DNA of 62,837 bases from an uncultured Trueperaceae bacterium (GTDB lineage: Bacteria > Deinococcota > Deinococci > Deinococcales > Trueperaceae). Under the pieces are notes generated by a model. It worked only from the letters and a program-made list of their open reading frames with translations, made no database searches and was not told where the DNA came from. The DNA lies in contig CAJXOA010000010.1 of assembly GCA_913057685.1 (NCBI GenBank), positions 1 through 62,837 on the forward strand, written 5' to 3'. Below are positions 11,033 to 36,830 of the stretch, piece by piece. Position 1 is the stretch's first letter, and each line of letters opens with the position of its first letter. The translations under genes and the position numbers were made by a program.

Positions 11033-12246
11033 CACCAACTCCGTTCGAAGCGGCGGCGGAGGTAGAACGCCGCGCCGTAGAGGACCAACAGGACCGCGAG
11101 GAGGACGAGGATGCCGGCGGAGGCGACGTGGGCGAACTCGACGTCGTTCTCCGCCACCCAACTGTAGATCTGGATCGGCACGACCGTGTAGGTCGACAGC
11201 GGCCCCTCGGGCGCCCGGGGGATGAACGCCGCCGCCCCGACCAACAGCAGCGGGGCGGTCTCCCCGATCGCGCGGGCGACGGCGAGGATCATGCCGGTCG
11301 TGATGCCGGTGATCGCGTTCGGCAGCACCACCTGCGACACCGTCTGCCACTTCGTCGCCCCCAAGCCGTACGACGCCTGCCGCAGCGAGGGCGGGACCGC
11401 TTTGATCGCTTCGCGCGCAGCGATGATGACGACCGGGAGGATCAACAACGACAGCGTCAGGGCGGCGGACAGGACGGTCGGCCCGAACTCGAAGACGCGC
11501 ACGAAGGCGTACAGCCCGAGGATCCCGTACACGACCGACGGGACCCCCGCAAGGTTTCGGATGTTCAACTCGATGAAGCGCGTCACCGCGTTGTCGGGCG
11601 CGTACTCCTCGAGGTAGATCGCCGCCCCCACGCCGATCGGCAGCGAGAACACGATGACCAACCCGATGACCCACAACGTCCCGATCAGGGCGTTGCCGAG
11701 GCCCGCCATGACCGGCGTCCGGCTGGCGTTCTTCGTCAGGAACGCCGCGTCCAGCCACGGGTTGAGGCGCACCTCCTGCCCCTCGCCGGCCTCCGCGCGG
11801 ATCGCGTCGAGTTGGCGGAGGCCCTCGAAGAAGCCGTAGTCGGCGACGGTGTCGTCGCGGCTGCTGGTGACGACGTAGCGCAGCGGCGCGCCGTCGAGCT
11901 GCCACAACAACTCCACGCGGTTGCGGAGGCGGAACTTGCGGCGCTCCTCGGGGTCGTCCAGCACCACCGCGGGGTCCTCGCCGCGTGCGACGAGCTCCTT
12001 CTCGACGACGTTCTCCCACGTCGAGAAGAACGCGAAGCCCTCGGTGAACGACCAGCTTTCCGTCGTGTACGCCGGCTCGACGATCTGCCACGACACGGTG
12101 TCGGTGATGACGTCGGCGAACAACGTCGCGACGAGCGCCAGGGCGAGGACGACCGGCACGAACGTGATCGCGACGAAGGTGCGGCCGCGCGCCCGCTTGG
12201 CCTCCTGGCGGCGGCGGTCGGCGTCGTTGCGGTGCGCGAGGCTCAT
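11032..12246 (-). CDS. pstA: Phosphate ABC transporter permease PstA
   Basis: Membrane subunit of the phosphate importer. The 404-residue protein is about 100 residues longer than short PstA proteins. After the first membrane helix (about 23-46) it carries an extra hydrophilic domain of about 120 residues (about 47-170), as in long PstA forms that I recall carrying DUF3333. The permease core follows, with the EAA-type loop ALKAVPPS-like segment [22 protein letters not shown]. It overlaps pstC by four bases (ATGA). The extra domain would lie outside the membrane next to PstS. Confidence 0.94.
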
Positions 12247-13187
12247 TCGTAGCGCTCCGCGAAGCGACGCACGATCTGGCCCGACGCGAGGTTCAGCGCG
12301 AGGGTGATGACGAACAGCGTCGCGCCGACGGCGTACAGCGCGCGCGACCCGATGCTCCCCATCGGTTGGTCGCCGGTGGCCGCCTGCACGATGAAGCTCG
12401 TCATCGTCGCGATCGTCTCGCGCAGGTCGAACGTGAAGGTCGGTTTCTGGCCGGCGGCGAGCGCGACGATCATCGTCTCCCCGATCGCGCGGGACATCGC
12501 CAGGATGAACGACGCGACGATCCCCGACAGCGCCGCGGGCACGACGACCTTGAGGACCACCTCGTAGCGGCTGGCGCCCAGGGCGTAGGCGCCCTCGCGA
12601 ATCGCGCGGGGCACCGCCTGCATCGAATCGATCGAGATGCTCGAGACGGTCGGGAGGATCATGAAGCCCATCACCAGGCCGGCGCTGGTGGGGTTGAAGA
12701 GGTTCAGGCCGGGGATGACCTCGCGCAGGAGCGAGGTGACGAAGAACAACGCGAAGTACCCGAGGACGACGGTCGGGATGCCGGCCAACACCTCGAGGAT
12801 CGGCATGATGGTGCGGCGCACGCGGGCGGTGGCGAACTCGCTGAGGTAGATCGCCGACCCCAGCCCCAACGGCAACCCCACGAGGAGCGCGACGAAGGTG
12901 ACGTTCAGCGTCCCCACCACGAGCGGAGCGATGCCGAACGCCTGTTGGTTCTCGGGGAACAACGGCGTCCAGCGGGTGCCCGTGAAGAACTCGCGGAAGG
13001 TGACGGCGGGATCGGCGAAGAAGGCGATCGTCTCGCTGGAGAGCGCGTAGATCACGGCGAACGTCGTGACGACCGAGACGCTGGCGGCGAGGAACAACAC
13101 GACGCGGATCGCCTGATCCCCGAGGTTCCGGCGGACGCTACGTTGGATGCCGATCGCTTCGGCGGCGCGTTTCGACGCTTGGCTCAT
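12243..13187 (-). CDS. pstC: Phosphate ABC transporter permease PstC
   Basis: Second membrane subunit of the importer, 314 residues with about six helices. The EAA loop reads [19 protein letters not shown], and the region [10 protein letters not shown] is typical of PstC. It is the first gene after a 109-base gap behind pstS and couples directly to pstA. A hairpin in the gap may reduce its expression relative to pstS. Confidence 0.95.
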
Positions 13188-13227
13188 GCACGCTCCCGGG
13201 GACAGAGTATCCGAGGCCGAACGAAAT

Positions 13228-13252
13228 CGTCCCCGGTCGATGACCGGGGACG
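13228..13252 (-). terminator. Attenuator-like hairpin between pstS and pstC
   Basis: A perfect 11-bp stem CGTCCCCGGTC/GACCGGGGACG with a 3-base loop lies 44 bases after pstS and 41 bases before pstC, followed on the minus strand by ATTTCGTT. It fits partial termination or an mRNA stabiliser, giving more PstS than permease. Confidence 0.65.
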
Positions 13253-13296
13253 AAGATACCGAAGCCGCATCAGGGCTTCGTCAGTTCCGCGTGCGT

Positions 13297-14274
13297 TCAG
13301 CGGGTGCCTTCCTGCTCGAAGATCTCCAGGACGGTGCCGCTGTACTCGTTGAAGGGCGAGCCGGTCACGCGGTTCTCGAAGCGCTCGAGGGCGACCTCGT
13401 ACGCCTCGTCGCTCAGCACGGCGTAGCCGGTGGCGGCGATCAGCGGGCGCGCTTCGTCGCTCAGCCAGTAGCGGATGAACTGCTCGACGGTCTCGTTCTC
13501 GTCCGCCGCGTCGACGGCGACGTACGTGAACAGCGGACGGGCGAGCGGCGTGTAGCTGCCGTCCTCGATCGTCGCGGTGCTGGGCTCGACGCAGCCGTTG
13601 CCGTCGTCGATCGAGACGGCGTTGAGCTTGTCCGCCTCCTCGGCGTAGTAGGCGTAGCCGAAGAAGCTGATGGCGTACGGGTTGCCCTCGACGCCCTGCA
13701 CGAGGACGTTGTCGTTCTCGCTCGGGAAGAAGTCGGTGCGGATCTCGTCCTCACCGTCGTTCAGGATCGCTTCGTTGAAGTAGTCGAACGTGCCGCTGTC
13801 GACGCCGGGCGCGTAGAACTCGATCGGCTCGTCGGGCCAGCCGTCGCGGACGTCCGCCCACGTCGTCACGCCGCCGTCGGCGCGCCACATGGTGTTCAGC
13901 TCGTCGACGGTCATGCAGGTCGCCCAGTCGTTCTCGATGTTCGTCACGACCGTCAGCGCGTCGAACGCGACCGGGATCTCGACGAACTCGCGGCCGGCGC
14001 CGTTGATGGTCTCGATCTCGCTCGGCTTGATGATGCGGCTGGCGTTGCTGATCTCGGTCTCGAGGGCCCCGAACTTCTCGAAGCCGCCGCCCGACCCGGA
14101 GAACGCCACGCTGACGTTCGTGTCGGGGTACTCGATGGCGAACTCCTCGGCGACGGAGAGGGCGATCGGGTAGACGGTCGACGAGCCGTCGACGCGCACG
14201 TCCTGCGCGATGGCGGCGCCGGCGAGGGCGAAGAGGAGGGCGAGGGGGGTGAGGATGGCGAACGGGTTCTTCAT
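13297..14274 (-). CDS. pstS: Phosphate-binding protein PstS
   Basis: Extracytoplasmic phosphate receptor of the importer, 325 residues. The N-terminus is a signal peptide (PFAILTPLALLFALAGAAIA, cut near residue 24), followed by VRVDGSSTVYPI, the phosphate-binding start motif. AFSGSGGGFEKF and a later Gly-rich loop supply further phosphate contacts. The ATG at 14274 follows GGAGGTAAT. The gene leads the pst operon and has an upstream -10 box and TGACN repeats (see regulatory entry). Confidence 0.96.
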   Translation of the reverse strand: MKNPFAILTPLALLFALAGAAIAQDVRVDGSSTVYPIALSVAEEFAIEYPDTNVSVAFSGSGGGFEKFGALETEISNASRIIKPSEIETINGAGREFVEIPVAFDALTVVTNIENDWATCMTVDELNTMWRADGGVTTWADVRDGWPDEPIEFYAPGVDSGTFDYFNEAILNDGEDEIRTDFFPSENDNVLVQGVEGNPYAISFFGYAYYAEEADKLNAVSIDDGNGCVEPSTATIEDGSYTPLARPLFTYVAVDAADENETVEQFIRYWLSDEARPLIAATGYAVLSDEAYEVALERFENRVTGSPFNEYSGTVLEIFEQEGTR

Positions 14275-14293
14275 GGGATTACCTCCACGCGAG

Positions 14294-14324
14294 AGCGTAA
14301 TGACGGAGTGTCAGGACTCGGTCA
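14294..14324 (-). promoter_or_regulatory. Promoter and Pho-box-like operator of pstS
   Basis: Minus strand: TGACC (14324-14320) and TGACA (14313-14309) are spaced exactly 11 bp, followed by TACGCT (14299-14294) as the -10. The repeats occupy the place of the -35, as PhoB/PhoP boxes do in activated phosphate promoters. The same TGACN repeats in 11-bp register precede the next gene. Confidence 0.6.
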
Positions 14325-14334
14325 TCCGACGTTC

Positions 14335-14366
14335 GCGGTGGGGCGGACGGACCGCCGCCCCACCGC
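14335..14366 (-). terminator. Hairpin after the choice-of-anchor I gene
   Basis: A perfect 12-bp stem (14335-14346 with 14355-14366) with an 8-base loop, just after the stop at 14375 on the minus strand. No U-tract. It separates this gene from the pstS promoter. Confidence 0.55.
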
Positions 14367-14374
14367 GCGGGGGG

Positions 14375-15964
14375 TCAGTGGGCGTGCCCGACCTCGTAGA
14401 TGCGGGTCGTGCCGCTGATCTCGAAGGCGACGATCAGCAGGTCGCGCCCGTTCGGGGAGGCGTCGGCCGGCACGAAGACGAGGCCTTCGGGCCCGAGGTC
14501 GCCCCCGTCGGGGCCGTCGGCGGCGGCGTCGATCGGGCGGTCGTTGTGGTAGCCCGCGAACGTCGGGGCGGTGGGGTCGGAGAGGTCGAACGTCATGACG
14601 CCCCCGACCCGCTCGAGGCCGACGAAGGCGTAGGGCGTGCCGTCGACGTGACCGACGACGACGCCCTCGGGCTCGGGACCCTTGGCGTCGCTCCGCCCGT
14701 CGAAGCTCTCGGCGGCAGACTCGTCGTTGTCGACGTTGTGCAGCTCGGGGTGGAGCTCCGCGACGGTCGTCTCGATCGTGTCGCCACTGTCCCACACGAG
14801 CTGGCCAGCCTCGTTCCAGACGCTGATGCTACGCGCGCCGTAGGCGTCGATGCGCTCGTGCGCACCGTCGCCGTCGAGGTCGCCGGTCGCGGTCGACAGC
14901 TCGAGGCGGCCGAGGGCGTCCTCCGCCTGCAACGCCGCGACGTCGCCGAACACGCCGGCGTCGAGCTCGACGTCCTCGACGCGGGCCTCCTCGCTGAAGG
15001 TGTCGTAGTCGCGGGCGTCGCCCTCGTTGGCGGTCACGACGTAGCCGCGGCCGTCGACGGTGAAGGGAGCGATCGCGTCGGGTTGGTACATGCCGTGGAT
15101 CGGCCAGCTCGCGAAGCTCGCGACGCCGTCGTCGTCGTTGACGTCCAGCGTGAGGCGGCTCCAGTCCTTCAGGCCGAGGGCGACGACGTCGGTCACCTCG
15201 CCGGCGACGAGGTCGACGACCGCGAGGGCGTTGTTCTCCTGCAGCGCGACGTAGGCGGTGAGGGTGCCCTCGGGGATGGCGACGTACTCCGGTTCGAGGT
15301 CCTGCGACGTCGTGGCGCCGGGCCCGTAGATCCGCACGCCCTCGGCGCGGAGGACGTCCTCGCGGCCGTCGAACGCCCGGAAGTCGACCTGCCGGACGGC
15401 GGCGGCGGCGGGGTCGCGGTCGTCGGGGAGATCGATGATCGTGATGCTGCCCTCGGGATCGACGGCGTAGTCGTCGCTCGGTTCGCCCTCGTTGGCGACG
15501 ACGACGTGCATGCCGTCGGGCGTGAACGTCAGCATGTCGGGGAGGACGCCGGCCTCGTGCTGCGCGAGGACGGTGCCGTCGGCGTCGGTGAACAGCACGA
15601 CGCCGTTCGCGTCCACCGCGTCCGCTTCGATCGCGACGGCGACCAGGCCGTCGTGCACCGCGACGCTGTTCGCGCCGTCGCCGAACGCCGTCATGTCGCG
15701 CTGCTCGATCAGCGTCGGGGCGGTCGGGTCGGACAGGTCGAGGACGTCGAGGGTGGTCGCCTCGGAGTTCACGACGAACAGGCGTTCGGACGCCGGGTCG
15801 TACGCGGCGATCTCCGCGGCGCCCTCGTCGAAGCCCCCGTGATCGAAGCCGCCGATCGGGGTGAGGGTGATCGTGCCGTGGCCGGCGTGACCGGCGGCGT
15901 GGACGGCGCCGGCGAGCGCCAGCGCGGCGAGGAGGGCGAAGAGGGTCGGGACGGGTCGGATCAT
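14375..15964 (-). CDS. Secreted choice-of-anchor I family protein
   Basis: A 529-residue exported protein: signal peptide (PTLFALLAALALAGAVHA, cut near residue 24), then a beta-propeller-like body with repeated blade motifs such as RLFVVNSEATTLDVLDLSDP and LVAVAIEADAVDANG. Family members are often labelled choice-of-anchor I or alkaline-phosphatase-like proteins; the biochemical role is unsettled. No C-terminal anchor is visible. Its place upstream of pstS and its own row of 11-bp TGACG repeats suggest induction by phosphate limitation, so a secreted phosphatase or phytase-like role is an inference. GGAGG precedes the ATG. Confidence 0.82.
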   Translation of the reverse strand: MIRPVPTLFALLAALALAGAVHAAGHAGHGTITLTPIGGFDHGGFDEGAAEIAAYDPASERLFVVNSEATTLDVLDLSDPTAPTLIEQRDMTAFGDGANSVAVHDGLVAVAIEADAVDANGVVLFTDADGTVLAQHEAGVLPDMLTFTPDGMHVVVANEGEPSDDYAVDPEGSITIIDLPDDRDPAAAAVRQVDFRAFDGREDVLRAEGVRIYGPGATTSQDLEPEYVAIPEGTLTAYVALQENNALAVVDLVAGEVTDVVALGLKDWSRLTLDVNDDDGVASFASWPIHGMYQPDAIAPFTVDGRGYVVTANEGDARDYDTFSEEARVEDVELDAGVFGDVAALQAEDALGRLELSTATGDLDGDGAHERIDAYGARSISVWNEAGQLVWDSGDTIETTVAELHPELHNVDNDESAAESFDGRSDAKGPEPEGVVVGHVDGTPYAFVGLERVGGVMTFDLSDPTAPTFAGYHNDRPIDAAADGPDGGDLGPEGLVFVPADASPNGRDLLIVAFEISGTTRIYEVGHAH

Positions 15965-26102: not shown

Positions 26103-26192
26103 CCCGGGACTCTCGGTCGCGTGCGCAGCGGCGCCCGCGCCGAGCCCCTCACCCCCCGCGCCGCGCGACCGTGCGGCAGGTTTGGAGCGCAG

Positions 26193-27227
26193 ATGTTCAG
26201 ACCGTGGCAAGAGATCGGCGTCGACCTCGGGACCGCGACCGTCCTGATCTACGTCAAGGGGCAGGGCATCCTGCTGCGCGAACCGTCGGTGATCGCCATG
26301 GTGCGCGACACGGGCGAGGTGAAGGCGGTCGGCGACGACGCGTACGCGATGCTGGGCCGCACCCCCGGCAACATCACCGCGGAACGCCCCATGCGCGACG
26401 GCGTCATCGCCGACTACGACCTCACCGAGAAGATGCTGCAGGCGTTCGTCCGCAAGGTCGTCACCGGCCCCGGGCGGTTCTTCCGGCCGCACGTCATGGT
26501 GTGCGTCCCCTCCGGCGTCACCGAGGTCGAACGGCGCGCGGTGCTGCAAGCCACCCGCGAGGTGGGCGCCCGCAAGGCGTTCCTGATCGAGGAGCCGCTC
26601 GCCGCAGCGATCGGGGCGGGCGTCGAGATCGCGGAACCGAGCGGCTCGATGATCGTCGACATCGGCGGGGGCACGACCGACGTCGCCATCATCAGCCTCG
26701 GCGGGATCGTCGTCAGCGAATCGCTGCGCGTCGCGGGCAACGAGTTCGACGAGGCGATCACGAAGTACGTGCGGCACAACGAGAACCTGCTGATCGGCGA
26801 CCGGACGGCGGAGGAGATCAAGACGAAGCTCGGCTCCGCCATGCTGGTGGAGGGCGAACCGGACGAGACCCTCGAGGTCCGCGGTCGCGACCTGGTGAAC
26901 GGCCTCCCGAAGACCGTCACGGTGCGCTCGAGCGACACCGTCGCGGCGCTCGAGGAACCGATCCAGAAGATCGCCGACGGCGTCCGCCAGGTGCTCGAGG
27001 CCGCCCCGCCCGAACTCGTGAGCGACGTCATCGATCGCGGCATCATCATGACGGGCGGCGGCGCGCTGTTGCGCAACTTCGACGAGCTGCTGCGCCGCAC
27101 GACCGGCATCCCCGTCGTCGTCGCGGAGAACGCGACCGACGCCGTGGCGCTCGGGACCGGCCGGGCGCTCGACATGACGCACGTCCTCGAGGACGCGCTG
27201 ATCTCCGACAACTTCCTCCGGCGCTGA
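26193..27227 (+). CDS. mreB: Rod-shape protein MreB (actin homologue)
   Basis: Forms membrane-associated filaments that guide lateral wall synthesis. The 344-residue protein shows the phosphate-1 motif IGVDLGTATVLIYVKG, phosphate-2 VDIGGGTTDVAII and the adenosine motif ITGGGALL-like MTGGGALLRNFD. The N-terminal MFRPWQ could be an amphipathic anchor. The ATG at 26193 follows GGAGC and gives the standard length. mreC and mreD do not follow; the next gene is a secreted S55-type peptidase. Confidence 0.96.
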   Translation: MFRPWQEIGVDLGTATVLIYVKGQGILLREPSVIAMVRDTGEVKAVGDDAYAMLGRTPGNITAERPMRDGVIADYDLTEKMLQAFVRKVVTGPGRFFRPHVMVCVPSGVTEVERRAVLQATREVGARKAFLIEEPLAAAIGAGVEIAEPSGSMIVDIGGGTTDVAIISLGGIVVSESLRVAGNEFDEAITKYVRHNENLLIGDRTAEEIKTKLGSAMLVEGEPDETLEVRGRDLVNGLPKTVTVRSSDTVAALEEPIQKIADGVRQVLEAAPPELVSDVIDRGIIMTGGGALLRNFDELLRRTTGIPVVVAENATDAVALGTGRALDMTHVLEDALISDNFLRR

Positions 27228-27234
27228 GGGCGCC

Positions 27235-29061
27235 GTGCGGCCGCCCCGCCCCCGTCCGGTTCGGCGTCCCCGCACCGCCGCGTGGCGGGCGGCGCTCGCC
27301 GTCGCGGTCGTCGTCGCCGTCGCCGGCCTCGCCCCCACCCCCGCGCGGGCGGCGGACGACCTGCCGCTGGCCGACGTCACGCCCGGCCTCGAGGGGTACG
27401 CCCTCACCGAAGGGCCCGGCGGCGTGCGCCGCATGGACGTCCGCGTCGTCGCCGTCCAGGCGCCCGACGGGCCCGGCTTCCCCCTGATCCTCGTGCGGGT
27501 CGGCGGCGCGTTCGTCGACGCCGTCGGCGGGGTCGCGGCCGGTATGAGCGGCAGCCCCGTGTACCTGAACGTGGACGGCGACGCCCGCCTCGCCGGCGCG
27601 ATCGGGTACGCCTTCCCCGACACCGACCACCGCCTCGCCCTCGTGACCCCCATCGGCACGATGCGGGCCCTCGAGGACGGCGACGGCGCACCGCCGGCGC
27701 GCCCCCCCGGCGCCGACCCGCTCGCGACGCCCGTCCTCGTGCACGGCGCCTCCCCCCGCGCCGTCCTGCACCTCCGCCCCGCGTTCGCGCGCGCCGGCCT
27801 GGACGTCGTCGCCGGTACGCCCGCCGGCGCGCCCGGCCTCGCCTCCGACCTCGCACCCGACCTCGCACCCGACCCCGTCCCGGGCGGCGCGCCCGCGCGC
27901 CTGCAGGGCGACGGCGCCGGCGCGTCCCCCAGCGACGCGGCGCCCGCGCCGCTCGCGCCGGGCGACGCGGCCGGCATCGCCCTCGCCTACGGCGACGTGA
28001 CGATCGCCGCCCTCGGGACCGTCACCGACGTGCGCGGCGACGACGTGTGGCTGCTCGGGCACCCGCTGCTGCGCAGCGGCCCGACCGACCTGACGGTCGT
28101 CCCCGCCGACGTCACCGCGATCGTGCCCAGCCGGACGCTGCCGTACAAGCTCGCGAACCTCCACGACCGGCCCGCCGCCCGCGCCGTGCGCGACGGAGCG
28201 GCCGGCGTCCTCGCGCGCCGCGCGGGCGAGCCCACCGGTATCCCCGTATCGGTCCGGGTCGACGCCCCCTCCGGCGCGACGACCCTCCGCACGCACGTCC
28301 CCGCCCACCCCGACCTCGCCCCGAGCGTCGTGGCGTCGGTCGTGCAGATGGCGGTCGACGGCGTCCGCGACCGCGTCGCGGGCGGCAGCGCCGACCTCGC
28401 CTGGGAGATCGCCTTCGCGGACGACCCGTCGATCCGCTTCGTCGAGCAGCGCCGCGACGACGACGACCTCGCGACCGCCGTCGCGCGCCTCGCCGCCGCC
28501 CCGGTCGACCTGCTCGCCGACAACCCGTTCCGCGAGGCGAACCTCGCGCGCCTCTCGCTGGTCGTCACCACCCACCCGGAACCACGCGACGTCGAGGTCG
28601 TCGAGGTGGCGCTCGAGCGCCCCACCGCCCCGCCCGGCGGGAGCGTCCCGGCGTTCGTGCGGCTGCAACCGTGGCGCGCCGACGCGGACGTCCGCACGAT
28701 CTCCGTGCCGCTCCCCGACGACGTCGAGCCGGGCCCGCTCGAGCTGACGGTCCGCGGGGCGTCGGTGCCCGACCCCCGCCGCGACGACCGGCCCGACGCC
28801 CCCCGCGACCCGCTCCGGCAAGCGATCAGCGACCTCCCCCCGATCCTCTCGTGGGGGGAGCTCCTCACCGCCCTCGAGAACCGCCCGCAGGCGCGGGAGG
28901 TGGTCGTGGAGATCCCCGGTACCGACCGGCCCCGCCGGCTCGCCCGCTTCGCGACCGACGGCGTCGCGACCGGCGTCCGGCACGTCACCGTCCAGGTGAC
29001 CTCCCCGAGCGACGCCCCCGCCCCCGACGACGCCCCGTCGAACGAAGGAGACGCCCCGTGA
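27235..29061 (+). CDS. Secreted protein of the SpoIVB/S55 peptidase family
   Basis: A 608-residue exported protein starting at GTG 27235, eight bases after mreB. A signal peptide (about 14-39, ending PARA) precedes a chymotrypsin-like S55 region with [12 protein letters not shown] (103-111), [10 protein letters not shown] and the histidine motif [12 protein letters not shown] (His276). In SpoIVB of Bacillus, as I recall it, the histidine motif precedes GMSGSP; here the order is reversed, so the fold may be permuted, or the two lineages may pair different halves. The C-terminal half is probably beta-rich. Its position between mreB and lpxD suggests envelope quality control or signalling. It overlaps lpxD by four bases. 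Proteolytic activity is unproven. Confidence 0.8.
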
Positions 29062-30092
29062 GCGACCCCGTCCCCACCGACGTCCTCGCGGACGCGATCG
29101 GCGCGACCCTCGAGGGGGAGGTCCGGACCGCCACCGGCCTCGCCCCGATCCCGGCGCCGCGCGCCGACCGCATCGTCGTCTGCCCCGACGACGACGCCCT
29201 CGCCACCACCCTCGCGGCGGACGGGGCGGAGGCGCTCGCCGCCGTCGTCGTCGACGCCTCCGCCGACGTCCCCCCCGGGGCGCCGCCGGTCCTCCGCCAC
29301 CCCGCACCCCGCCTCGCCCTCGCGCGCCTCACCCGCCGCTTCGACCCGACGCCGGTCCCCGCGCCCGGCATCGATCCGACCGCCCGGGTCGCGCCCGACG
29401 CGGACGTCGCCGCCGACGCGACGGTCGGTCCCGGCGCGATCCTCGGGGCGGGCGCCCGGGTGGGCGCCGGCGCGCGGATCGGGGCGCACGCCGTCGTGGC
29501 CGACGGCTGCACCGTCGGTCCCGCGTCGGTGCTGCACCCCCACGCGGTGCTCTACCCCGGCACGCACGTGGGGGCGCGCACCACCGTGCACGCCGGCGCG
29601 GTGCTGGGCGCCGACGGCTTCGGGTACGCCGCCGGCCCCGGCGGACCGGAGAAGATCCACCACCTGGGCGGCGTGGAGGTCGGCGACGACGTCGAGATCG
29701 GGGCGGGCACCTGCATCGACCGCGGGACGCTGGAGGCGACCCGCATCGGGGACGGAACGAAGATCGACAACCTCTGCCAGATCGGGCACAACGTCCGGAT
29801 CGGGCGGGTCTGCCTGATCGCCGGCACCTGCGCGATCGGCGGCAGCAGCGAACTCGGGGACGGCGTCGTGCTCGGCGGCGGTGCGGCACTCCGCGATCAC
29901 GTGCGGGTCGGCGACGGCGCGCAGGTCGCCGCCCGCGCCGGCGTCTCGAAGGACGTCCCGGCGGGCGAGGCGTGGGGCGGCACGCCGGCCGTGCCGATGC
30001 GGGCGTGGGCGCGGGAGCGCTACCTCGTCGGGCGCCTCGAAGCGATCTGGGCGTTCGTGCGGGCCGCCCGCCGCGCGGACGGCGACGCGTGA
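29058..30092 (+). CDS. lpxD: UDP-3-O-acylglucosamine N-acyltransferase LpxD
   Basis: Third step of lipid A synthesis: N-acylation of UDP-3-O-acyl-GlcN. The 344-residue protein has an N-terminal uridine-binding domain (about 1-95), then a left-handed beta helix of hexapeptide repeats (about 100-300; e.g. [18 protein letters not shown]), with the catalytic histidine region [12 protein letters not shown] and a C-terminal helix. GTG start within the preceding stop; GGAG seven bases upstream. First of six clustered lipid A-type genes. Confidence 0.94.
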
Positions 30093-30886
30093 GCGACGCC
30101 GCGACGCTGTCCGGCGTCGGGGTGCACGGCGGCCGCCCCGCCACCGTCCACCTCCACCGGCGGCCGGGCCCCGTCGCGTTCCTCGTGACGGGCACCGCGG
30201 TCCCCGCCACCCTCGACGCGGTCGCGGACGCCCGCGGGCGGACGGTCCTCGCGGCCGACGGCGTCCACGTCGCGACCGTCGAGCACCTGCTCGCCGCCCT
30301 GCACGTCGCGGGCATCTGGTCGGACCTGCTCGTCGAGGTGGACGGCGACGAACTCCCCATCCTCGACGGGTCCGCCGGCCCCTGGCGGGACGCGCTCGCG
30401 GACCTGGCGGCCCCCGCGCCGTTCCCGAAGCCCCCCGCCCCCCTCGCGCCCCCGGCGGAGGGCGTCGCGGTCGCCACCGGCGACGCGCACGCACGCCTCA
30501 CGCCCGGCCCGACGTCGCTGGACGTCACCATCCACTACGACCACCCCGCCGTCGGGACGCAGGCGTGGGCGGGGGGCGTGGACGCGTGGGGGGCGCTGCT
30601 CGACGCCCGCACGTTCGGGTTCGCCGCCGACGCCGACGCGCTCCGCGCCGCCGGCCTGGCCGCGGGCGCGTCGCCGGCGAATGCTATCGTCTTCGGCGAC
30701 GATGCCCCGCCGGTCCTCCGCCGTCCCGACGAACCCGTCCGCCACAAGGCGCTGGACGCGCTCGGGGACCTGTACCTGCTCGGCCGGCCGTTCGCCGGCC
30801 GCCTTCGCGTGACGCGCGGCGGGCACGCCCTCCACCACGCCCTGGCGCGCGCCCTCGCGCGCGCCACCACCGAGGCGCCGGCGTGA
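30089..30886 (+). CDS. lpxC: UDP-3-O-acyl-GlcNAc deacetylase LpxC
   Basis: Zinc-dependent committed step of lipid A synthesis. The 265-residue protein is about 40 residues shorter than the E. coli enzyme but keeps the active site: Glu65-His66 (VEHLLAAL), ARTFGF, His219-Lys220 and Asp223 ([12 protein letters not shown]), and His246 (GGHALHH). These correspond to the zinc ligands and the catalytic acid/base residues. GTGA overlaps on both sides show tight coupling to lpxD and the oxidoreductase gene. Confidence 0.94.
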
Positions 30887-31896
30887 CGCCCCCCGACGCG
30901 CCGGTCCGCGTCGCAGTGATCGGCGTCGGGGTGATGGGGCGCCACCACGCCCGCAACTACCTGGCGCTGCCCGGCGCCGACCTGGTCGCGGTCGTCGATC
31001 CCGACCCCGACGCGCGGGCGCGCGCCGAACGGGAGTTCGGGGTGCCCACCCACCCCGACGTGCGCACGCTGCTCGCAACGACCGCCGTCGACGCCGCCAG
31101 CGTCGTCGCGCCCACCCGCCACCACTACGCCCTCACCGACGCGTTGATGGCGGCCGGCGTGCACGTCCTCGTCGAGAAGCCGGTCACCGCCACCGTCGAG
31201 GAGGCCGAAGCGCTCGTGCGCCGCTCCCGCGAACTCGGGGTGGTCCTCCAGGTCGGGCACATCACCCGCTTCTTCCGGGCGGTGCAGCTGCTGCAGGAAC
31301 GCGTCGAGGCGCCGTACCTCGTCGAGGCGCGCCGCCTCGCGCAGCAGGCCCGCATCACCGACGTCGGGGTGGTCCTGGACCTGATGATCCACGACATCGA
31401 CATCGTCCTCGGGCTGGTCGGAGCGGACCTGCGCGACGTGACGGTCTCGGGCTTCACGCTGAACGACGACCAGGTCGGCGAGGACGTCGCGGCGGCGCAA
31501 CTGACGTTCGCGAACGGCGCCGTCGCGCGCCTCCTCGCCTCGCGCGTCGCCCCCGACGCGGAACGCACCCTCGTCGTCGCGGAGCGCGACCGGACGTTCC
31601 GCGTCGACTTCCTGCGCGAGCCCCACACCGAGATCGCCGTCTACCGTTCGCGTCCCGACGCGACCGGCGACACGCACGTCCGCAGCGACCTGCAGGTCGT
31701 CGCGGAGGACAACCCCCTGCGCGAGGAGCTCGCGCACTTCCTCGCCCGCCTCGGCGGCGACGTCGCCCCCATCGGGACGCTGGAGGACGACCTCCGCAGC
31801 CTGCGGGTCGCGACGGACCTGGTGCGTCGCCTCGACGCGCGCGACGCGGCACCGACGGCGTCCGCGGCGGCCGTCGCGGACCCTGGGGTACGCTGA
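30883..31896 (+). CDS. Gfo/Idh/MocA-family oxidoreductase in the lpx cluster
   Basis: NAD(P)-dependent sugar dehydrogenase-like protein of 337 residues. The Rossmann start AVIGVGVMGRHHARNY and the EKPVT motif (with catalytic-type Lys) are clear; the C-terminal beta domain has GVVLDLMIHDIDIV. In Acidithiobacillus the related GnnA oxidises UDP-GlcNAc at C3 so that lipid A carries a 3-amino sugar. Its place between lpxC and fabZ makes a GnnA-like role attractive, but no DegT-type GnnB aminotransferase is adjacent. Its stop overlaps the last bases of the fabZ -10 box. Confidence 0.85.
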   Translation: MTPPDAPVRVAVIGVGVMGRHHARNYLALPGADLVAVVDPDPDARARAEREFGVPTHPDVRTLLATTAVDAASVVAPTRHHYALTDALMAAGVHVLVEKPVTATVEEAEALVRRSRELGVVLQVGHITRFFRAVQLLQERVEAPYLVEARRLAQQARITDVGVVLDLMIHDIDIVLGLVGADLRDVTVSGFTLNDDQVGEDVAAAQLTFANGAVARLLASRVAPDAERTLVVAERDRTFRVDFLREPHTEIAVYRSRPDATGDTHVRSDLQVVAEDNPLREELAHFLARLGGDVAPIGTLEDDLRSLRVATDLVRRLDARDAAPTASAAAVADPGVR

Positions 31897-31900
31897 GCGC
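31887..31900 (+). promoter_or_regulatory. Internal leaderless-type promoter of fabZ
   Basis: GGTACGCT (TACGCT 31889-31894), six bases, GTG at 31901. The box ends in the TGA stop of the oxidoreductase gene. It would let fabZ-lpxA-lpxB be transcribed separately. Confidence 0.6.
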
Positions 31901-32320
31901 GTGAACGACGACCCGCGCGCGGTGCTGCCGCACCGCTACCCGTTCCTGCTCGTCGACCGCCTGGTCTCCCAGGAGGGCGACGCCTTCGTCGCGAGGAAGA
32001 ACGTGACGATCAACGAACCGTTCTTCGTCGGGCACTTCCCCACCGAACCGGTCATGCCCGGCGTGCTGATCCTCGAGGCGCTCGCGCAGGCGGCCGCCCT
32101 CGGGCTCGCCGCCCGCGAGGGGTTCGAGGGCGGCGAGGTCGGCTACTTCGCCGGCATCGACGAGGCCCGCTTCCGCCGCAAGGTCGTGCCCGGCGACGTG
32201 CTGGAGTTGACCGGCACCATCACCGCCTTCCGGCGGGGCGTCGCCCGCGTCGACGCGCGCGCGCTCGTCGACGGCGAGACCGCCGCGGACGCCAAGCTCT
32301 CCTTCGTCTACCGCCCCTGA
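31901..32320 (+). CDS. fabZ: 3-hydroxyacyl-ACP dehydratase FabZ
   Basis: Hot-dog-fold enzyme that dehydrates 3-hydroxyacyl-ACP in fatty acid elongation and competes with LpxA/LpxD for hydroxyacyl substrate. The 139-residue protein has LPHRYPFLLVDR, the catalytic His in FFVGHFPTEPVMPGV and the catalytic Glu in ILEALAQ. The fabZ-lpxA pairing is the usual bacterial arrangement. Confidence 0.96.
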   Translation: MNDDPRAVLPHRYPFLLVDRLVSQEGDAFVARKNVTINEPFFVGHFPTEPVMPGVLILEALAQAAALGLAAREGFEGGEVGYFAGIDEARFRRKVVPGDVLELTGTITAFRRGVARVDARALVDGETAADAKLSFVYRP

Positions 32321-32324
32321 CGCC

Positions 32325-33095
32325 GTGGCGGACGTCCACCCGAGCGCCGTGGTGGACCCCGCCGCCCGCCTCGCGGCGGGCGTCACGGTCGGCCCGTTCT
32401 GCGTCGTCGAGGGGGACGTCGAGGTCGACGCCGACGCGCGCCTGCTGCCCGGCACCGTGCTGTTCGGCGGCACGCGCGTCGGGCCGCGCGCCGTGCTCGG
32501 CCCGTACGCGACGCTCGGCGGCGCCCCGATGGACGACGGCTGGGAGGGCGGCGCGAGCGAGGTGCACGTCGGTGCCGACGCGCAGCTGCGGGACTTCGTC
32601 AGCGTCCACCGCGCCAGCACGCCCGGTGGGGCGACGCGGATCGGCGACGGCAGCCTCGTCATGAGTTACGCGCACGTCTCGCACGACGTGCAGGTCGGGC
32701 GCGGCGTGACCCTGACCACCACCGTCCAGCTCGGCGGGTACGCCGAAATCCACGACCACGCGGTGCTCGGCGCGGGCGCGATGGTGCACCAGTTCACCCG
32801 CGTCGGGGCGTACGCGATGGTCGGCGCGGACAGCGCCGTCAACCGCGACGTCCTGCCGTACACGTTGGCGCGCGGCAGCATGGCGGAACACTTCCGCCTG
32901 AACGGCGTGGGGCTCCACCGGCACGGGATCGACGGCGACCGCTACCGGACGCTGGAGCAGGCGGTCCGAGCGATCCGGCGGGGCGACGAGGCGGCGTTCG
33001 ACGCGCTCGCCGACGCGCATGCGGACGTCGCGGCGATGCGGGTGTTCCGCGCCGCCAGCCGGCGCGGCCTCGCGCGCTTCCGGGGCCGCCGGTGA
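32325..33095 (+). CDS. lpxA: UDP-GlcNAc O-acyltransferase LpxA
   Basis: First lipid A step: acyl transfer from ACP to UDP-GlcNAc (or UDP-GlcNAc3N). The 256-residue protein is a hexapeptide beta helix with the catalytic His region VMSYAHVSHDVQVG, then AMVHQFTRVGAYAMVG and a C-terminal helical domain (LNGVGLHRHGI). Four bases separate it from fabZ, and no Shine-Dalgarno site is seen, so coupling is likely. It overlaps lpxB by four bases. Confidence 0.94.
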   Translation: MADVHPSAVVDPAARLAAGVTVGPFCVVEGDVEVDADARLLPGTVLFGGTRVGPRAVLGPYATLGGAPMDDGWEGGASEVHVGADAQLRDFVSVHRASTPGGATRIGDGSLVMSYAHVSHDVQVGRGVTLTTTVQLGGYAEIHDHAVLGAGAMVHQFTRVGAYAMVGADSAVNRDVLPYTLARGSMAEHFRLNGVGLHRHGIDGDRYRTLEQAVRAIRRGDEAAFDALADAHADVAAMRVFRAASRRGLARFRGRR

Positions 33096-34321
33096 GCGAC
33101 CCCGCTCCGGGGACCGACCGGGAGGTCGTGCTCGTCAGCAACGGCCCCGGCGAACTGCTCACGTGGGCGAAACCGGTGTTCGACGCCCTCCGGACGCACG
33201 ACCCCGACCTGCCGGTCCGCATCGCGTTGATCCCCTGCCAGTTCGCGTCGGGCCGGGAGGCGGAGATCGCGGGGACGTTCGGGGCGGACGCCGTCACGAC
33301 CCCCGCGCAGTTCCTCCGCACCGTCCCGGCGGGCCGCGCGCCCGCGGGGCTCGGTGCGGCGCGCGGCGTGGTGCTGCAGGTGGGGGGCGGCGTGCAGCAC
33401 GCCGCGGCGCTCGCCGCCCGCCTCGGGCACCCGCTGCACCGCTACGCCTTCACCGCCCACCGGCACCGCCGCGTCGCGCGCCTGTACGTCCCCGACGCCC
33501 GCACCGCCCGCCGGGCGGTCCGGCGCGGCACCCCGAGCGCGCGCGTCGAGGTCGCCGGCAACCTGGTCGCCGACGTCCTGCAGGACACCCCGCCCACGCC
33601 GGACGCCGGCACCCCGCACCTGCTGGTGATGCCGGGCAGCCGCGACGCGTTCGCGCGGGTGTTGATCCCGGCGTTCCTCGCGGTCGTCGACGCGCTCGCG
33701 CCGCACCATCCGGACGCGCGCTTCGTGTGGCCGGTCAGCCGCATGCTGTCCGACGCCGCGATCCGCGACGGGATCGCCGGCACCGACGCCGCGGTGTTGG
33801 GCGGCGTCGGCGGACGCCGCGACGGCGACGTCGTCGTCACCCCGTCGGGGGGGCGGGTGGAGATGGTGCCCGACACGGGCCGCCACCCGCACCTGCGGGC
33901 GGCCGACCTGGCGCTCACGATCCCCGGCACGAACACCCTGGAGTTGGGGGTGGCGGGCATCCCGGCGTTGGTGGTGCTGCCGATGAACGCCCCCGAACGC
34001 ATTCCGCTCGAGGGGGCGGGACACTGGTTGGGGCTGCTGCCGTGGGTCGGACCGCCGCTCAAGCGGGCGGCGGTCCGGACGTTCGTCGAGCGCCTCGACC
34101 AGCCGGTGTCGCTCCCCAACCGCATCGCGGACGACGCGCCGTTCGAGGAGGTCAAGGGCGTCGTCGAGCCCACCGACCTCGCGCGCCGCCTCGACGCGAT
34201 GCTGGCCGACCCCGCCGACCTCGCCGACCGCCGCGCGCGGTTGGCGGCGAGCATGCCGCGGCCCGGCGCCGCCGCGACCGTCGTGCAGGGCGTCCTCGCG
34301 GCGTTGGGGGGCGCGCCGTGA
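33092..34321 (+). CDS. lpxB: Lipid-A-disaccharide synthase-like glycosyltransferase
   Basis: LpxB joins two acylated glucosamine units into the lipid A disaccharide. The 409-residue protein matches the LpxB fold: EVVLVSNGPGELLTWAKPV at the start, a long middle Rossmann region and the donor-site motif ADLALTIPGTNTLELGVAGIP, then LPNRIAD. It looks closer to the LpxB-related proteins known from cyanobacteria than to E. coli LpxB, so the assignment rests partly on its place after lpxA. GTGA overlap with the following exporter gene. Confidence 0.85.
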   Translation: MSDPAPGTDREVVLVSNGPGELLTWAKPVFDALRTHDPDLPVRIALIPCQFASGREAEIAGTFGADAVTTPAQFLRTVPAGRAPAGLGAARGVVLQVGGGVQHAAALAARLGHPLHRYAFTAHRHRRVARLYVPDARTARRAVRRGTPSARVEVAGNLVADVLQDTPPTPDAGTPHLLVMPGSRDAFARVLIPAFLAVVDALAPHHPDARFVWPVSRMLSDAAIRDGIAGTDAAVLGGVGGRRDGDVVVTPSGGRVEMVPDTGRHPHLRAADLALTIPGTNTLELGVAGIPALVVLPMNAPERIPLEGAGHWLGLLPWVGPPLKRAAVRTFVERLDQPVSLPNRIADDAPFEEVKGVVEPTDLARRLDAMLADPADLADRRARLAASMPRPGAAATVVQGVLAALGGAP

Positions 34322-36048
34322 ACGCCGCACGGACGCTCCGCCCGTACGGGCCTGCGGGGTGGGCGGGGGCGACGGCGGCGGCGGTCGCGGGCGTCCTGCG
34401 CGTCGCGGTCGTCCCGGCGTTCGTCCCGCCGCTCCTCGACCGCGTGATCGTCGCCGGCGACCTCGCCGCCCTCCCCCGCGTCCTCGCGGTCACCGGCCTC
34501 GTCGCGGTCGCCGCCGCGCTGGCGCTGGCGCTGCAGGACGCCCTGCTGGCGCGCGCCGGCGCGCGCCTGGCGGCCGACCGGCGGGAGGCGGTCTACCGGC
34601 GCCTACTCGCCCGCACGCCGGGGCGGCTCCCCGGCACGTCGGGAGGGCTCGCCGGACGCCTCCCCGCCGACCTTCGCGAGATCGAGCTCTTCCACCAGGG
34701 CGGCCTCGGCACCCTGGTGGCGGAGTCCACCGCCATCGTCGTCATCGTCGGGCTGCTCGCCTGGCGCGACCCGGTCGCGACCCTCGCCCTCGTGGCGCTG
34801 GGCGTCCCCATCGGCCTACTGATGCAGCGGCTGGGGCGGCACCTGCGGCGCCAAGCGACCCGCGCGCAGGCCGGCACCGAAGCGGTCGCCGGGGACGTGC
34901 AGGAGGGCCTCCGCCACCACGCGGTCGCTCGCGCGTTCGGTGCGGAGGCGTTCCTGATGCGGCGCTTCGCGCGCGCCAACGCCGCGACCCGCGCGGCGGG
35001 CGCCCGGCGGGGGGCGTGGGCGGCGCTGCAGGTCCCCGCCAGCCAGGTGGCGGTGTTCCTGGCGTTGGCGGTCCTCGTGTCGCTCCTCGCCGGCCGGGCG
35101 GCGGCGGGCGCCCTGAGCGTCGGGGAGGTCGCGGAGTACCTGACCCTCGTTGCGCTGCTCGCGAACCCCGCGCAGTTGCTGCCACGCGGTTACGCGCTGG
35201 CGGTGCAGGCCCGCGCCGCGGACGCCCGCCTCGCGGACCTCGAGGCGGACGAAGGTCCCCAGGTCGCCGCCGCCGGCGGCCCGGGGACCGACGTACCGAG
35301 GACCGACGAACCGAGGACCGACGAAGCGGCGACCGACGCGACGGCGGAGGCCGCGCCGAATGCGGCGGCAGGGTCGGTGGGGGGCGGCGACGGCCTCGTG
35401 CTCGACGACGTCTGGTTGCGGCACGCCGGCGGGCCGTGGCTCCTACGGGGCGCCACGGTGCGCCTGCCCCCGACCGGACTGGTGGCGCTCACCGGCGAGA
35501 GCGGCGCGGGGAAATCCAGCCTGGTCGCCGCCCTGCTCGGGTTCCTGCCCCCCGAACGCGGCGCGATCCGCTGGGCGGGCGCGCCGCTGCAGCCACGCAC
35601 GACGGTCGCGTGGGTGCCGCAATCGATGGACCTGCTGCGCGGCAGCCTCCGCGACAACCTGACGCTCGGGGCGGCGTACGACGACGCGGCGCTGCACGCC
35701 GCCCTCGCCGCGGTCGGGCTGGAGGCGGTCGTCGCGGCGCGGGCGGGCGGCCTCGACGCGGAGCTCGCGGAGGACGGCGCGGGGCTGTCCGGTGGGCAAC
35801 GCCAACGCCTGGCGGTGGCGCGCGCCCTGCTGCGCGAGCCGGCGGTCCTGGTGCTCGACGAGCCCAGCGCGGCGTTGGATACGGCGTCGGAGGCGGCGCT
35901 CGTCGCGACGCTGCGGCGCGAGGCGCACCGCCGCCTGGTGGTCGTCGTCGCGCACCGCGACGCCGTGCGCGCCGCCGCGGACGTCGTCCTCGCAATGGTG
36001 GACGCCCACCTGCGCGTGCGGGCGGCCCACGTGCCGGGGGACGCGTGA
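34318..36048 (+). CDS. MsbA-like ABC exporter (half-transporter)
   Basis: A 576-residue exporter with an N-terminal membrane domain (six helices, about 15-300) and C-terminal ATPase: Walker A TGESGAGKSSL, Q-loop WVPQSMDLLRGSLRDNL, signature LSGGQRQRLAVARALL, Walker B VLVLDEPSAALD and H-loop VVAHRD. Position after lpxB suggests flipping of lipid A across the inner membrane. The linker between domains (about 323-345) is built from 15-base tandem repeats encoding Thr-Asp-x-Pro-Arg units. Substrate is inferred from context. Confidence 0.85.
   Translation: MNAARTLRPYGPAGWAGATAAAVAGVLRVAVVPAFVPPLLDRVIVAGDLAALPRVLAVTGLVAVAAALALALQDALLARAGARLAADRREAVYRRLLARTPGRLPGTSGGLAGRLPADLREIELFHQGGLGTLVAESTAIVVIVGLLAWRDPVATLALVALGVPIGLLMQRLGRHLRRQATRAQAGTEAVAGDVQEGLRHHAVARAFGAEAFLMRRFARANAATRAAGARRGAWAALQVPASQVAVFLALAVLVSLLAGRAAAGALSVGEVAEYLTLVALLANPAQLLPRGYALAVQARAADARLADLEADEGPQVAAAGGPGTDVPRTDEPRTDEAATDATAEAAPNAAAGSVGGGDGLVLDDVWLRHAGGPWLLRGATVRLPPTGLVALTGESGAGKSSLVAALLGFLPPERGAIRWAGAPLQPRTTVAWVPQSMDLLRGSLRDNLTLGAAYDDAALHAALAAVGLEAVVAARAGGLDAELAEDGAGLSGGQRQRLAVARALLREPAVLVLDEPSAALDTASEAALVATLRREAHRRLVVVVAHRDAVRAAADVVLAMVDAHLRVRAAHVPGDA
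35285..35344 (+). repeat. 15-bp tandem repeat in the exporter linker
   Basis: Four in-frame units of a GGACCGACGAACCGA-like 15-mer (the first three nearly identical, the fourth diverged). They code for the charged linker and could change copy number without a frameshift. Confidence 0.7.
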
Positions 36049-36830
36049 GCGGGGGCGCGGGCGGACCCCACGGCGCGGTGCCCGACCTGTACGACGACGT
36101 CGCGCTGTACGACCTCCTGCACGCCGGCTACCGCGACGACCTGGCGTTCTACCGCACCGTCGCGCTCGACCACCCGGGCGTCGGCGTCGAGATCGGCGCG
36201 GGCGCCGCGCGCGTCACGCCCGACCTGGCGCGCCTCGCCGAACGCGTCGTCGCCGTCGAGCCGTCCGCCGCCATGCGGGCGGCGGGCGCCGCGCGCCTCG
36301 CGGCGCACGGGCTGGACGACGCCGTCACGTGGCGCCCGACCCCCCTCGAGGAGGGCCCGAGCGTCGAGCCGGGCGGGTACGCGTGGGTCGTCGCCCCCTT
36401 CCACGTCCTGAACGAAGTCCCACCCCTCGAGGGGCAGGACCGCCTGCTGCGCGCGGCCCGCGCGGCGTTGGCGGACGACGGGGTGTTCGCCTTCGATGCG
36501 TTCGCGCCCCCGAACGACGTCTCGAACGACGTCCCGACGTTGGAGATCGACCACGCGGACGCGGAGGGGCGCCACGTGACCGCCTGGCGGGTGCGGCGCT
36601 ACGACCCGGTCCGCCAGACGCTCGTCAGCCGCTGGGTGGTGGACGTCACCGGTGCGGACGGGACGGTGGTGCGGCGGCACGCGCGGCTGGTGCAGTGGGC
36701 CTGGCACCGCTTCGAACTGGAGCGGGCGTTGCGGGCGGCGGGCTTCGGTCGCGTCCGCCTGTTCGGCGACCTCGACCGGCGTCCGGTCGGCGACGACCTC
36801 GTGCGGTTCGTCGGGCTCGCCCGACCCTGA
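36045..36830 (+). CDS. SAM-dependent class I methyltransferase
   Basis: A 261-residue methyltransferase. Motif I is VGVEIGAGAARVTPDLA, preceded by YDLLHAGYRDDLAFY; the acidic residue of motif II is in VVAVEPSAAM, and a NEV motif (FHVLNEVPPLEGQDRLLRAA) follows. The final gene of the coupled envelope block (GTGA overlap with the exporter). The substrate is unknown; modification of a lipid, sugar or small molecule is possible. Confidence 0.82.
   Translation: MSGGAGGPHGAVPDLYDDVALYDLLHAGYRDDLAFYRTVALDHPGVGVEIGAGAARVTPDLARLAERVVAVEPSAAMRAAGAARLAAHGLDDAVTWRPTPLEEGPSVEPGGYAWVVAPFHVLNEVPPLEGQDRLLRAARAALADDGVFAFDAFAPPNDVSNDVPTLEIDHADAEGRHVTAWRVRRYDPVRQTLVSRWVVDVTGADGTVVRRHARLVQWAWHRFELERALRAAGFGRVRLFGDLDRRPVGDDLVRFVGLARP

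Follow-up and report, generated by a model that had tools for sequence, protein, structure and literature searches.

A lipid A-type gene block beside mreB in Trueperaceae, probably an ancestral Deinococcota operon for a shortened pathway

The window considered here is a stretch of 62,837 nucleotides from an uncultured Trueperaceae bacterium (NCBI GenBank assembly GCA_913057685.1, contig CAJXOA010000010.1, positions 1 to 62,837), and the system of interest within it is a block of seven genes, all on the + strand at positions 29058-36048, most of whose products resemble enzymes of lipid A synthesis. In order these are lpxD, lpxC, a Gfo/Idh dehydrogenase gene (gfo), fabZ, lpxA, an lpxB-like gene and a gene for an ATP-binding cassette (ABC) exporter. 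A first-pass annotation, made from the DNA letters alone, had described them as one coupled block, and this description holds in coordinates, strand and spacing, with adjacent genes either overlapping by 4 bases or leaving 4 bases between the start codon and the preceding stop. A scan limited to simple consensus types of site revealed no promoter-like or terminator-like sites in this stretch. The source genome is 2.29 Mb in 74 contigs, 98% complete and 0.2% contaminated.

LpxD, FabZ and LpxA each pass the cut-off of at least one NCBIfam model, and LpxC passes that of its Pfam model. LpxD (29058..30092), the UDP-3-O-acylglucosamine N-acyltransferase, scores 294 bits against TIGR01853 (cut-off 242.5) and 316 against NF002060 (207), matches LpxD in the PDB at 1.6e-51 and retains the IGHN histidine motif. 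LpxC (30089..30886), the deacetylase of the committed step, reaches 200 bits with PF03331 (cut-off 27) and 166 bits with TIGR00325, which is below the cut-off of 187. The 3-hydroxyacyl-acyl carrier protein (ACP) dehydratase FabZ (31901..32320) scores 168 bits with NF000582 (113) and 165 with TIGR01750 (155), and LpxA (32325..33095), the uridine diphosphate N-acetylglucosamine (UDP-GlcNAc) 3-acyltransferase, 234 bits with NF003657 (226). Both LpxC and LpxA can be aligned with the sequences of their solved structures. Across an alignment of 17 relatives the metal-site and catalytic residues E65, H66, T175, H219, D223, D227 and H246 of LpxC are invariant, as are the catalytic H117 and H120 of LpxA; we take these to be the known active-site positions of the E. 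coli enzymes. The active sites of LpxC, LpxA and LpxD, read as intact at first pass, are thus confirmed.

The glycosyltransferase and the exporter are assigned less easily. The former (33092..34321), a divergent LpxB-type protein resembling lipid A disaccharide synthase, scores 21 bits against TIGR00215, for which the cut-off is 190. Its family profile nevertheless finds E. coli LpxB at 1.6e-6 and aligns with the canonical LpxB profile in HHalign at 99.5%, E 2.5e-22, over 256 columns; the motifs GSR, GTxTLE and LPN (L-N in the partner) are common to the two, and the N-terminal half has diverged. Judged on these profiles, the protein can with certainty be called a remote LpxB homologue, and the earlier label of lpxB stands at the level of homology. 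An AlphaFold2 model built from two sequences has a pLDDT (predicted local distance difference test) of 41.6. The exporter (34318..36048) combines a transmembrane domain (PF00664) with an ATPase (PF00005) and is a possible lipid flippase. It scores 198 bits against the MsbA model (cut-off 602) and 200 against CydD, and the solved structures nearest to it belong to diverse ABC exporters, so that the name "MsbA-like exporter" holds for the general class and the score does not suffice to assign the protein to MsbA.

How widely is the block shared, and where does its host belong? The genome falls in Trueperaceae (Deinococcota), the family that includes the radiation-resistant Truepera radiovictrix, a placement that rests on kinship in GTDB plus the matches of its relatives; the suspicion that the Deinococcota reading might be wrong can be set aside. 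The phylum is represented by 111 genomes, without clear sampling of Deinococcus itself, and 61 of them have LpxC: 35 of 39 in Trueperaceae, including all five of the own genus, 4 of 4 in family f3, 1 of 14 in f4, 21 of 50 in f5 and none of 4 in f2. Members of the set were named by inference, G009 presumably being Marinithermus hydrothermalis and G023 Meiothermus silvanus, and the genera g30 and g25 being taken as Thermus and Oceanithermus. No LpxC match occurs in the 27 species of g30 (G045-G071, within f5), in Oceanithermus, or in the named controls Thermus composti and Deinobacterium chartae. The LpxB-like gene is distributed in parallel: 59 genomes have both genes, 2 have LpxC without the LpxB-like gene and 3 the reverse (two weak partial matches excluded).

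The block also keeps its place and its order. Upstream lies mreB (26190..27227, +; NF010539 471 bits, cut-off 293), which marks the conserved locus and precedes lpxD in 20 of 20 relatives examined, and in most of them the exporter gene is likewise kept in position. Trueperaceae retain the order mreB-(608 aa)-lpxD-lpxC-gfo-fabZ-lpxA-lpxB-ABC, and Marinithermus and Meiothermus the same order without the gene for the 608-residue protein; f3 and some Thermaceae have the cluster split or without gfo. Truepera radiovictrix and Meiothermus ruber, whose genomes are complete, also have the mreB-adjacent locus. The 608-aa protein (27235..29061, +), whose gene overlaps lpxD by 4 bases, faintly resembles SpoIVB peptidase S55 (PF05580 at E 0.18) and carries a GMSGSPVY motif; most Trueperaceae and f3 have it between mreB and lpxD, and it was not found at the locus in Thermaceae or Marinithermus. 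At the other end, an S-adenosylmethionine (SAM)-dependent methyltransferase (36045..36830, +; PF08242 33 bits), whose gene has a 4-base overlap with that of the exporter, is kept beside the exporter in most Trueperaceae clusters and could be a modifier of the lipid. In one genome (G097, L044, 9164-11240) two added open reading frames, of 145 aa (HNH-like in appearance) and 542 aa, separate lpxA from lpxB.

An LpxC tree, which the first-pass annotation had proposed as a check, places all 33 Deinococcota rows on one side of a branch with 100/100 support, opposite 22 rows from other phyla; the outgroup matches listed were mostly Proteobacteria with one Trueperaceae record, isolate KA26, and Cyanobacteria and Dictyoglomi are not in the tree. 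On the Deinococcota side Thermaceae and Marinithermaceae are set against Trueperaceae and f3, and the LpxC of "Trueperaceae bacterium isolate KA26" falls inside the Trueperaceae branch, as the family assignment would have it. Had the block been acquired recently from another phylum, or been misplaced in the binning of this metagenome-assembled genome, this would suit both the 74-contig assembly and the view that the well-studied Thermus and Deinococcus are without lipopolysaccharide (LPS). Such an origin has scarcely any probability left and is refuted by the occupation of the same mreB locus in the two complete genomes, by the single LpxC clan of the phylum and by the presence of LpxC throughout the own genus. 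The simplest reading of these patterns is vertical inheritance with several losses; of the two possibilities first raised, that the lineage kept lipid A or gained it, the spread of LpxC, the shared locus and gene order and the single LpxC clan support the former.

The available passages of Antunes et al. 2016 (PMC5007114) already infer an LPS outer membrane as ancestral in this phylum, with later losses, and the puzzle of lpx genes in Deinococcota is largely solved because of it. The general statement that Thermus and Deinococcus lack LPS accordingly fits some genera, such as the one taken as Thermus with no LpxC, and does not extend to others. Those passages share with the present work the phylum, the core genes and the ancestral-then-lost conclusion, and give no description of the GnnA-like gene discussed below, of the divergence of LpxB, of the absence of later pathway enzymes or of how the genes are spread over the genera. 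A single-contig Trueperaceae genome of 4.3 Mb (G084; L138, G084:C1:836000-855500, 11615-14660) carries mreB-608aa-gfo-fabZ-lpxA-lpxB-ABC. Here lpxD and lpxC are cleanly gone from the cluster, with no remnant detected by tblastn and no LpxC elsewhere in the genome, and the arrangement may represent an intermediate stage of loss or may make a simpler lipid.

What follows the early acylation steps is less familiar. The genes lpxH/I, lpxK and waaA had been noted as absent from the block, and models for LpxK, WaaA, LpxH (TIGR01854) and LpxI (PF06230) match none of the 111 genomes, the own genome included, with positive controls in E. coli for the first three and in Caulobacter for LpxI. In comparison with the Raetz pathway to Kdo2-lipid A (Kdo, 3-deoxy-D-manno-oct-2-ulosonic acid) in E. 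coli, LpxA, LpxC, LpxD and a remote LpxB are held in common, whereas LpxH/I, LpxK and WaaA are not detectable in genome or phylum. Replacement enzymes are known in other organisms, where LpxI and LpxG take the place of LpxH, and with four enzymes and an exporter present one could picture a normal, complete Kdo2-lipid A for which unrelated proteins stand in for LpxH, LpxK and WaaA. This is very unlikely, as the models for these enzymes and for LpxI are silent throughout the phylum and three independent replacements are harder to accept than a shortened pathway of the cyanobacterial type. The Synechococcus control has LpxC and, as in Deinococcota, no LpxK, WaaA, LpxI or LpxH. Opiyo et al. 2010 (PMC3087551) described a four-enzyme lipid A cluster, lpxD-lpxC-fabZ-lpxA-lpxB, in Cyanobacteria and Dictyoglomi, and the order is the same here, with the later pathway enzymes missing in both. 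The present block differs in the GnnA-like gene between lpxC and fabZ, the ABC exporter after lpxB and the adjacent mreB, and in that its LpxB falls below the LpxB cut-off while that of the Synechococcus control lies above it. We consider it probable that the block is an ancestral Deinococcota lipid A-type operon which came down to Trueperaceae by vertical descent and operates, as in Cyanobacteria, as a shortened pathway.

The nature of the sugar backbone turns on the dehydrogenase (30883..31896), which had been recorded simply as an oxidoreductase; the gene is as described, and its likeness to GnnA, a dehydrogenase of the UDP-GlcNAc 3-dehydrogenase type, had been missed. Its top PDB match is 7bvj at 2.9e-44, the second being at 1e-20 (family profile 213 versus 104 bits), and we take 7bvj, named in the PDB merely "Oxidoreductase, NAD-binding", to be GnnA of Acidithiobacillus ferrooxidans. 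The best NCBIfam model is NF040723, UDP-N-acetylglucosamine 3-dehydrogenase, an equivalog model of archaeal type, at 173 bits against a cut-off of 450. GnnA and GnnB act on UDP-GlcNAc to supply lipid A with its 2,3-diaminoglucose (PMC8036547). The GnnA-likeness of the block dehydrogenase suggests a backbone of 2,3-diamino sugar. The resemblance to the A. ferrooxidans pathway to UDP-GlcNAc3N lies in this cluster dehydrogenase, for which 7bvj is the nearest solved relative; unlike there, no dedicated gnnB stands beside it, and the sole full-length DegT aminotransferase of the own genome (G000:C3:18452-19555) is encoded elsewhere, a few kb from an LptF/G gene. This DegT protein is closest to sugar transaminases, WbpE among them, and in Thermaceae and Marinithermus a DegT gene directly adjoins LptF/G. 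One might expect the LptF/G-linked DegT proteins to be orthologues of one another and hence a clear GnnB, an idea that the tree does not uphold, since it does not unite them.

It could instead be that the GnnA-like enzyme serves another sugar pathway and that the lipid has an ordinary glucosamine backbone, a variant of the shortened-pathway explanation and not exclusive of it, to which we would give somewhat less than an even chance. The lack of an adjacent gnnB, the DegT orthology that the tree does not settle, the sub-threshold dehydrogenase score and the f3 family, with lpx genes and without gfo, all lean towards this variant. It has to be set against the position of gfo between lpxC and fabZ-lpxA in Trueperaceae, Marinithermus and Meiothermus, against the dehydrogenase being by sequence far nearer to 7bvj than to other solved dehydrogenases, and against one f3 genome (G008) in which the cluster gfo and the full-length DegT are absent together. 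The f3 genomes (G005-G008; L037-L039, L140-L142) have lpx genes in a cluster without the GnnA-like gene, G008 being without any full-length DegT aminotransferase as well, and the family provides a natural control for the diamino-sugar idea.

Under the shortened-pathway reading the chemistry would run as follows. The GnnA-like enzyme would oxidise position 3 of UDP-GlcNAc, and an aminotransferase from another locus would swap the keto group for an amine, after which LpxA would attach a 3-hydroxyacyl chain, LpxC take off the acetyl group and LpxD attach a second 3-hydroxyacyl chain, activities that are predicted from the families concerned, with FabZ at the branch point drawing on the same 3-hydroxyacyl-ACP. 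Some further enzyme would release uridine monophosphate, and the divergent LpxB would couple two monosaccharides to a disaccharide. The product is most likely a shortened, Kdo-free lipid A, expected to be without 4'-phosphate and Kdo because LpxK and WaaA are not detectable. The ABC exporter probably flips this lipid over the inner membrane, and a candidate block of LptF/G, LptC-like and LptD-like proteins may carry it to the outer membrane.

Might the operon make some other acylated amino-sugar glycolipid and no LPS anchor, for instance the N-acyl-hexosamine glycolipids of Thermaceae? The divergence of LpxB and of the exporter would allow it, and Meiothermus is reported to have branched 3-hydroxy fatty acids, some of them in amide-linked glycolipids, in which 2-hydroxy or 3-hydroxy fatty acids are amide-linked to galactosamine (PMC3035268). 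However, the basic lipid of all Thermus and Meiothermus examined, dihexosyl-N-acylhexosaminyl-hexosyl-diacylglycerol (PMC3035268), does not explain the operon because it is common to both genera; Thermus makes it without lpxC, as the Thermus composti control and the 27-species genus indicate, and so does not need the operon. Moreover, LpxC would yield a free 2-amine on a 3-acylated UDP-sugar, for which that lipid has no need. We regard this alternative as unlikely.

Transport genes lie elsewhere in the genome. LptF/G genes occur in 110 of the 111 genomes. A genome search for lptD, among the checks first proposed, gave nothing with PF04453 in all 111; as this model is equally silent on the Synechococcus and Bacteroides controls, the absence is not accepted. 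Neighbourhood analysis did yield a candidate, at G000:C3:27043-29007 (L177:1975-4008) beside LptF/G. It belongs to a family of about 560-760 aa without significant Pfam match and with a signal-peptide-like start. Of nine members, eight show a CC motif at the C terminus (DCC, GCC, TCC, SCC; the ninth has DEC), a cysteine pair of a kind also present in E. coli LptD, and there are other invariant cysteines. In a PDB profile search LptD ranks first, at the CC motif, with a non-significant E of 0.34, and the protein is best described as a candidate LptD. The surrounding block (L157 and L177, G000:C3:9000-41000) contains the DegT aminotransferase, RelA/SpoT, LptF/G, the candidate LptD and an LptC-like protein. 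The last of these, beside one LptF/G gene, matches PF06835 at E 0.004 in one member and has no match in a PDB profile search. The LptD-like protein is present in 96 of the 111 genomes, including all six Oceanithermus-like genomes, and does not track LpxC. The genus taken as Thermus has LptF/G in 27 of 27 genomes, the LptD-like protein in most and no LpxC.

Several observations weigh against a working shortened lipid A pathway. The LpxB-like protein is too divergent for the same substrate to be assumed, and for the pyrophosphatase step neither LpxH nor LpxI is found in the 111 genomes, a result that leaves room for other analogues. The aminotransferase partner is uncertain, the own-genome DegT and the LptF/G-linked DegT of Thermaceae not forming one clade in the tree, and the LptD-like protein, which most g30 genomes (taken as Thermus) carry despite having no lpx genes, is not by itself evidence of LPS. 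The genome papers of Truepera and Meiothermus (for the latter PMC3035268) report no LPS, and a literature search, for which subscription journals were mostly out of reach, returned nothing on LPS in either genus.

The ancestral lpx genes have been published before; the present work adds the GnnA-like gene, the divergence of LpxB, the lack of downstream enzymes and a candidate LptD block. A bolder proposal, tentative and as a whole rather doubtful, is that most Trueperaceae and Meiothermus build a minimal lipid A on 2,3-diaminoglucose, with neither Kdo nor 4'-phosphate, and export it through an LptD that has been missed, and that Thermus lost the lipid and kept the transporter for other cargo. 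The candidate LptD bears on the statement of Leonard et al. 2022 (PMC8871954) that lptD was never found in atypical diderms, Deinococcus-Thermus included. Whether the bacterial ancestor already had an outer membrane and LPS is under debate, and Deinococcota figure prominently in it. The genera with and without the operon, together with the complete genome that has lost only lpxD and lpxC, form a natural series of LPS loss, and since the shortened operon is conserved in the cultured Truepera radiovictrix and Meiothermus ruber, lipid chemistry can put the question to a direct test.

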